Of a DNA stretch of 64,000 bases, positions 63,166 through 64,000 are shown piece after piece (position 1 is the stretch's first letter; the number at the start of each line of letters is the position of its first letter). The translations under genes were made by a program, and so were the position numbers. The notes under the pieces were generated by a model. The model had not been told where the DNA came from, ran no database searches, and was given only the letters and a program-made list of their open reading frames with translations. Origin of the DNA: Gallibacterium genomosp. 1 (GTDB lineage: Bacteria > Pseudomonadota > Gammaproteobacteria > Enterobacterales > Pasteurellaceae); assembly GCF_000771875.1 (NCBI RefSeq), contig NZ_JPXX01000018.1:124001-188000 (forward strand). Reading direction: 5' to 3'.

Positions 63166-63771
63166 ATGTCATTAAGTGAAAAAGAAAAAATGGCGGCAAA
63201 ACTGCCGCATTTCCCGTATGATCCAGAATTAATTCGACTTAGACAACAATCGAAGCAGATTTTATTTCAGCTCAATTATCAGCTTTCTCCTATCGACCCC
63301 CAACGTAAAACATTACTAAAGCGTCTGCTAGGTAAAAGCGGAGATAATTTGCACATAAATTCACCGTTTTTCTGTGATTACGGCTTTAATATTGAAGTCG
63401 GTAATAATTTTTTCGCCAATTATCAATGTACTATTTTGGACAGTGGCAAGGTTTCAATTGGGGATAATGTGATGTTTGCACCTAATGTCAGTCTTTATAC
63501 AGTTGGGCATCCATTACATTACCAACAAAGAAATCAAGGCTATGAACAGGCAAAAGAAATTATTATTGAAGATAATGTCTGGATTGGAGGCAATTGTGTG
63601 ATTTTAGGTGGTGTTACCATCGGTGAAAACAGCGTTATCGGTGCCGGCAGCGTGGTAACAAAATCAATTCCTCCAAACAGTTTAGCATTCGGCAACCCTT
63701 GTCGTGTAATTCGGGAAATCAACGAACAAGATCGCAAACATTATCAAGAACTGCTGGATCGCACTGTTTAA
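63166..63771 (+). CDS. maa: Maltose/galactoside O-acetyltransferase family protein
   Basis: A 201-residue left-handed beta-helix acetyltransferase. The N-terminal Mac domain starts EKEKMAAKLPHFPYDPELI. The hexapeptide repeats include NVWIGGNCVILGGVTIGENS and VIGAGSVVTKSIPPNSLAFG, and the catalytic His is in YTVGHPLHY. It transfers acetyl from acetyl-CoA to a sugar. Confidence 0.92.
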   Translation: MSLSEKEKMAAKLPHFPYDPELIRLRQQSKQILFQLNYQLSPIDPQRKTLLKRLLGKSGDNLHINSPFFCDYGFNIEVGNNFFANYQCTILDSGKVSIGDNVMFAPNVSLYTVGHPLHYQQRNQGYEQAKEIIIEDNVWIGGNCVILGGVTIGENSVIGAGSVVTKSIPPNSLAFGNPCRVIREINEQDRKHYQELLDRTV

Positions 63772-63816: not shown

Positions 63817-63845
63817 AAAAAAAGCCGCCCCAAACACTAGGCGGC
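63817..63845 (-). terminator. Intrinsic terminator of the predicted sRNA
   Basis: A perfect 6-bp GC-only stem (GCCGCC / GGCGGC) with a 10-nt loop and T7 on the minus strand. On the plus strand there is no T-run, so it does not serve the acetyltransferase gene. Confidence 0.8.
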
Positions 63846-63886
63846 AAATAACCTAAGGAACTAATTTAAACAACCATTATGTTGCA
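63817..63886 (-). ncRNA. Predicted small RNA upstream of and divergent from luxS (MicA-like position)
   Basis: On the minus strand a sigma-E-type promoter (63892-63919) would start an RNA near 63886. About 45 nt of AU-rich sequence follow, with a small CAAC/GTTG stem near the 5' end, then a GCCGCC/GGCGGC terminator stem (63824-63845) and seven T. The predicted length is about 70 nt. E. coli MicA has the same position, orientation, sigma-factor dependence and length (about 72 nt), but the sequence is not obviously alike. No protein-coding gene uses this terminator. Confidence 0.5.
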
Positions 63887-63891
63887 TTTTT

Positions 63892-63919
63892 TCAGACAAA
63901 TCCGTTCTGAAAAAGTTCA
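63892..63919 (-). promoter_or_regulatory. Sigma-E-type promoter for the predicted sRNA
   Basis: On the minus strand TGAACTT-N16-TCTGA. The E. coli degP sigma-E promoter has the same -10 (TCTGA) and 16-nt gap after AACTT; the consensus -35 is GGAACTT, so one base differs. Confidence 0.55.
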
Positions 63920-63957: not shown

Positions 63958-64000
63958 ATGCCACTATTAGACAGTTTTAAAGTTGACCACGTTAAAATGA
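63958..64000 (+). CDS. luxS: S-ribosylhomocysteine lyase LuxS, first 14 codons (cut by window edge)
   Basis: The frame from ATG reads MPLLDSFKVDHVKM, the near-invariant start of LuxS, and runs to the window end. LuxS makes the autoinducer AI-2 precursor. AAAGG lies upstream of the ATG. Confidence 0.88.
   Translation, partial: MPLLDSFKVDHVKM

Follow-up and report, generated by a model that had tools for sequence, protein, structure and literature searches.

The window (the whole 64,000-nt stretch of Gallibacterium DNA analysed here) carries, on the minus strand and divergent from luxS, a conserved, real small RNA gene, which is the Gallibacterium copy of JA04 (RF02732) and hence belongs to an RNA family that is already catalogued. 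The first-pass annotation had proposed a sigma-E-driven RNA at this place as a possible counterpart of MicA, which it took to be undescribed in Pasteurellaceae; the RNA itself is not an undescribed one. The known description of JA04 is one of Fur/iron regulation, to which we add a sigma-E-type promoter and a position at the micA locus. We consider it probable that JA04 is a trans-acting, sigma-E-driven RNA whose UUCCUUA core pairs with outer-membrane-protein mRNAs; its transcription, sigma-E dependence, use of Hfq, targets and direction of regulation are deduced here from sequence comparisons.

The JA04 copy of Gallibacterium

Direct reading of the sequence confirmed the TGAACTT-N16-TCTGA element, the predicted small RNA and the strong terminator that had been placed on the minus strand (Table 1). 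An Rfam-wide scan gave JA04 as the best match, over the full length of the model (1–81 of 81; 46.8 bits, E 2e-5 in 2 kb). With the curated Rfam cut-off for JA04 at 81 bits, the window copy would escape routine annotation; its link to the above-cut-off members runs via congeners and intermediate genera. A model of our own, R2, is made from 39 sequences linked to luxS, drawn from 22 genera; as it includes the window sequence, its E-value of 5e-9 is not independent. The window copy shares with JA04 the 5' CAAC...GUUG hairpin, the single-stranded GUUCCUUAGGUUAUU core and the GC terminator, but has an altered hairpin loop and a shortened linker, and its score is below the cut-off. Identity with VqmR was rejected (21.2 bits against a cut-off of 76).

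Table 1. Features of the JA04–luxS region (positions in the window)
Feature	Position	Strand	Basis or remark
−35 element TGAACTT, sigma-E-type promoter	63913..63919	−	direct sequence reading; TGAACTTT near-invariant in 64 distinct relatives
Spacer, 16 nt between GAACTT and TCTGA	63912–63897	−	positions near-random in relatives
−10 element GTCTGA (TCTGA = 63896–63892)	63892..63897	−	GTC(T/C)(T/G)A in relatives
Predicted small RNA, divergent JA04 (RF02732) member, ~68 nt	63818..63885	−	cmscan 46.8 bits, E 2e-5; model R2 58.6 bits, E 5e-9 (not independent)
5' hairpin GCAAC...GUUGU, 5 bp	63870..63885	−	fold; paired in 99.5% of cells, 39 relatives
Conserved single-stranded core AUUAGUUCCUUAGGUUAUU, proposed pairing region (UUCCUUA 63860–63854)	63847..63865	−	unpaired in fold and consensus
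Intrinsic terminator, T7	63817..63845	−	7-bp stem at 63845–63824, 6 GC; compensatory changes in family
luxS start, divergent neighbour, runs off window	63960..64000	+	168-aa LuxS; full gene in L001/L032
Acetyltransferase-like gene, in place of usual yqaA/gshA neighbour	63166..63771	+	named by sequence inspection only

Read on the minus strand from 63885, the RNA begins GCAACAUAAUGGUUGUUUAAAUUAGUUCCUUAGGUUAUUUGCCGCCUAGUGUUUGGGGCGGCUUUUUUU, and its predicted fold (−17.5 kcal/mol, z −1.3) consists of the 5' hairpin, an AU-rich, unpaired stretch of about 24 nt and the terminator. None of the seven positions of UUCCUUA varies in the 39 sequences, which represent 22 genera. Pairing is kept in the 5' hairpin, but since hardly any of its pairs varies it gives little covariation evidence; the terminator has two-sided compensatory changes in all six counted pairs across the family. 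Compensatory cells number 57, compared with 17 for shuffles and no more than 8 for slid controls. A terminator search at the window locus found one terminator (0.2 in shuffles). The plus strand has AAATAAC instead of Ts after the stem, so the stem does not terminate the upstream plus-strand gene, and among the open reading frames of the locus none precedes it on the minus strand; the terminator therefore belongs to a free-standing minus-strand unit.

Promoter and distribution in Pasteurellaceae

Searches with RF02732, R2 and LuxS covered 140 Pasteurellaceae genomes, plus fetched luxS loci. JA04 was found in 93 of the 140 genomes, representing 24 genera (R2 search, GcvB look-alikes removed), and is divergent from luxS in all but one (G013) of these carriers. 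JA04-model matches in genera g2 and g22 and in genome G082 were rejected as GcvB. Of 128 luxS loci in Pasteurellaceae, 91 have a GAACTT-N15-17-TCNNA element no farther than 110 nt from the gene, against 0.24 matches expected (maximum 3) in dinucleotide shuffles of these loci, so the promoter–terminator pair is not a product of chance. Divergent from luxS, the pair is clearly conserved across much of the family, as the first-pass annotation had anticipated. The conserved form of the promoter is (T)GAACTT-N16/17-GTCTTA/GTCTGA, at 21–81 nt from the luxS start codon. Among 64 distinct N16 promoters, most spacer positions hold 0–0.6 bits each, and positions outside the search pattern are also fixed: the T before GAACTT (59/64), the T after it (62/64), the G before TC (64/64) and TT within the −10 element (55/64 each).

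Elements of the GAACTT-N16-GTCT(T/G)A type are sigma-E promoters by the established consensus. RpoE (TIGR02939) is present in all 140 Pasteurellaceae genomes (138 above the curated cut-off; E 2.3e-91 for the copy of the window genome), and a search of both strands of the window locus found no sigma-70-like promoter. Position 63885, where the JA04 model starts, lies 7 nt past the −10 element, and 6 nt separate TCTGA from the RNA start. Judged from the conserved element and the presence of rpoE, it is very likely that the JA04 promoter is sigma-E dependent. A widespread, unexplained family (Haemophilus, Aggregatibacter and Rodentibacter included) would thereby gain in sigma-E a regulator that can be tested, together with a likely envelope-stress role, and its reading as an iron RNA would have to be revised.

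It is unlikely that JA04 is primarily iron-responsive and Fur-controlled, with a RyhB-like role and the sigma-E-like element secondary. Two papers cite JA01–JA04 as Fur-regulated in Aggregatibacter actinomycetemcomitans (PMC4144887, PMC5753348); however, the orthologue in H. influenzae (NTHi) is reported to have no mid-log expression, not to be Fur-regulated and to have no nearby Fur box (PMC4144887). We found no Fur box beyond shuffles upstream of JA04 in the window or in genus g5 (which scores highest with JA04 and is presumably Aggregatibacter), and the conserved upstream element is GAACTT-N16-GTCTTA instead. The report of Fur regulation and the absence of mid-log expression in H. influenzae count against the sigma-E reading, the latter yet also fitting a stress promoter. 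In the open-licence papers searched, we found JA04 linked neither to sigma-E nor to luxS, nor to MicA and its locus.

A chiefly cis-acting JA04, in which divergent or antisense transcription over the luxS leader would tune the AI-2 synthase, seems less likely still. Closeness to luxS is constant, and MicA affects luxS mRNA processing in E. coli (PMC2956633); a cis mode has been proposed for one of the activities of MicA. But genome G013, in which no luxS was found, keeps JA04 and a GAACTT...GTCTTA promoter between other genes (L161:1460-1580, by a triosephosphate isomerase gene), so JA04 is not dependent on luxS, which speaks against a purely cis role. Moreover, the invariant part of JA04 is the unpaired core, not the luxS-proximal leader, and 35 genomes have luxS in a different gene setting without JA04 (luxS appears to have been moved or replaced in these genomes). 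Mutating luxS in Haemophilus and its relatives may disturb JA04; for Salmonella biofilms, such a disturbance of micA is shown (PMC2987988). That the promoter–terminator pair is chance or an unrelated DNA element (e.g. a binding site for a luxS regulator) is highly improbable, as the palindrome TTTTTCAGA-N9-TCTGAAAAA inside the promoter of the window genome (63887–63917) is not conserved in congeners G052 and G053, where promoter, RNA and terminator are, and the compensatory terminator changes and the independent Rfam family match contradict it.

A tandem second JA04 copy, 135–280 nt farther from luxS, was observed in about 20 genomes (loci L045, L046, L058, L080, L091, L099, L106, L036, L088, L098, L081 and L114; the Haemophilus-type L047, L075, L077, L085, L100 and L120; also L101 and L111). 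In some genera (g18, g21, g43), each of the two copies has a GAACTT..GTCT promoter. The distal copy in g3, g6, g10 and g32 has no GAACTT and looks sigma-70-driven, and such distal copies in several genera count against the sigma-E reading. In g6 the core of the proximal copy has diverged. A possible JA04 paralogue, an orphan RNA-like element with the core UUGGUUCCUUAGGUU and a terminator, was found away from luxS in G020 (L416:2250-2345).

Candidate targets

Under envelope stress, RpoE would transcribe the ~68-nt JA04 RNA from its own promoter, divergent from luxS, and transcription would stop at the intrinsic terminator, with Hfq binding expected at its U tail (U7 and the AU-rich single strand are compatible with an Hfq-dependent trans-acting sRNA). 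The UUCCUUA core, which is anti-Shine-Dalgarno-like, would pair with the ribosome-binding regions of selected mRNAs, the likeliest being outer-membrane-protein mRNAs (P2-type porins, OmpP1/FadL), and translation would be lowered. RybB/VrrA-type RNAs are sigma-E-driven and repress outer-membrane-protein mRNAs, a general plan that JA04 would share; the full Rfam scan reported no RybB or VrrA match for the window stretch.

The targeting of porin mRNAs, also put forward in the first-pass annotation, is only weakly suggested by pairing energies: porin 5' regions pair with the JA04 of their own genome at a mean of −12.4 kcal/mol (n=23) against a background of −9.9 ± 2.4 kcal/mol (330 genes of one Haemophilus-type genome), and the porin shift obtained with the real core is not distinguishable from that with shuffled cores (p 0.13; similar in 13% of shuffles). 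Pairing of ompA, porin and FadL genes shows only a modest shift against 330 and 387 background genes, and with the core alone the shifts have p 0.04 for porins and p 2e-4 for ompA, the ompA genes being homologous and hence non-independent. By pairing rank in the window genome, ompA is at the 74th percentile and the single testable porin at the 25th. MicA represses ompA by pairing of its 5' end, whereas the 5' end of JA04 is a hairpin, and ompA pairing is weak in the window genome. Outer-membrane-protein targeting is suggested as the most plausible role of JA04, and is unproven.

AACC-A-UAAGGAA is found in some porins. The OmpP1/FadL sites match the JA04 variants of their own genomes, UAAGGAA-A-CUAAUU with UUAG in Gallibacterium and UUAAGGAAACCAAUG with UUGG in G079, this co-variation (CUAA/UUAG and CCAA/UUGG) being a single case, not a general one. 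Two sequence searches were set aside. For a 16-nt near-perfect target site of the core, there were only scattered or antisense coding matches beyond the RNA gene itself. The pattern AACCNTAAGGAA-N-ATG was found at three Haemophilus-type porins, rapZ and tolA-like genes, and is not decisive, as the reversed control also had 4 matches.

Rna01 of Actinobacillus pleuropneumoniae (PMC9577009) is likewise a Pasteurellaceae RNA with a GAACTT-16-TCTTA promoter and a link to an outer membrane protein (ompP2B), but its locus is sbcB-eriC, not luxS. We rejected it as the same gene, given the other locus and the absence of two published internal primer sequences from the loci compared (the sbcB-eriC locus not among them). 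The description of Rna01 covers Actinobacillus, Mannheimia and the like (PMC9577009), and genera of this type may be the clade without JA04 at luxS.

MicA and other RNAs at the luxS locus

The proposed kinship with MicA holds for gene position and promoter, but no RNA sequence detectably shared with MicA was found. Like MicA (RF00078), JA04 is divergent from luxS at the yqaB-yqaA-gshA-RNA-luxS position (family-wide), is ~70 nt long with a terminator, and has a sigma-E-type promoter with an N16 spacer ~35–39 nt from the luxS ATG; the E. coli micA promoter is GAACTC-N16-TCTGA, 35 nt from this ATG. The gene order in E. coli is yqaB-yqaA-gshA-micA-luxS, and 83 Pasteurellaceae loci have either yqaB-yqaA-JA04-luxS or gshA-JA04-luxS (with E. 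coli proteins as queries, yqaA and/or yqaB were found on the far side of JA04 in 79 JA04-luxS loci). Genus g11 has gshA-JA04-luxS, exactly the E. coli order, with gshA at 52–56% identity to that of E. coli. LuxS of the window genome and LuxS of Gallibacterium anatis share 93% identity; the window genus has the acetyltransferase-like gene and no yqaA neighbour, so its own synteny is indirect.

The RNA bodies differ: the 5' end of MicA is unpaired, whereas JA04 has a hairpin at its 5' end and an internal seed-like core. The MicA model had no match above its cut-off in any of the 140 Pasteurellaceae genomes (and none at E ≤ 1 in the window genome), and the JA04 model had no match at 41 luxS loci of other families, E. 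coli included. Eight weak, sub-threshold MicA matches coincide with JA04 loci in three genera, and could reflect the shared AU-rich body and terminator. As homology of the JA04 body with that of MicA could not be detected, we do not file JA04 as MicA; it is a positional, promoter-sharing counterpart of MicA, and not a demonstrated member of that family.

Among the luxS loci sampled from the order Enterobacterales, families f18 and f10 (Enterobacteriaceae-like) carry MicA, and several families (e.g. f21) have no such RNA at the locus. The sampled families support an old sigma-E RNA slot at this locus, common descent not being proven. We see an even chance that the gshA-luxS interval is an ancient sigma-E sRNA slot of Enterobacterales, in which MicA, JA04 and the tandem RNAs of family f2 come from one gene that kept its promoter and position while body and seed were rewritten, and that was duplicated into sigma-E- and housekeeping-driven copies in some Pasteurellaceae. 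The comparison suggests that the MicA locus is older than Enterobacteriaceae, and that an sRNA locus can keep its promoter and address while the RNA sequence turns over.

Two further families have RNA-like elements in the gshA-luxS interval. In f5 (L227), a GAACTT...TCTCA promoter is followed by the MicA-like AAAGACAUUAUUUAGUUAUCAUCC, for which the Rfam MicA model reported no match. In f2 (L225, L226 and L258; no Rfam match was reported for L225), there are two tandem sRNA-like units divergent from luxS, each with GAACCA-N16-TCAGA/TCTGA, GCAAGAGUUGUUUUUUCAUUUUU and a terminator, and with a different RNA body.
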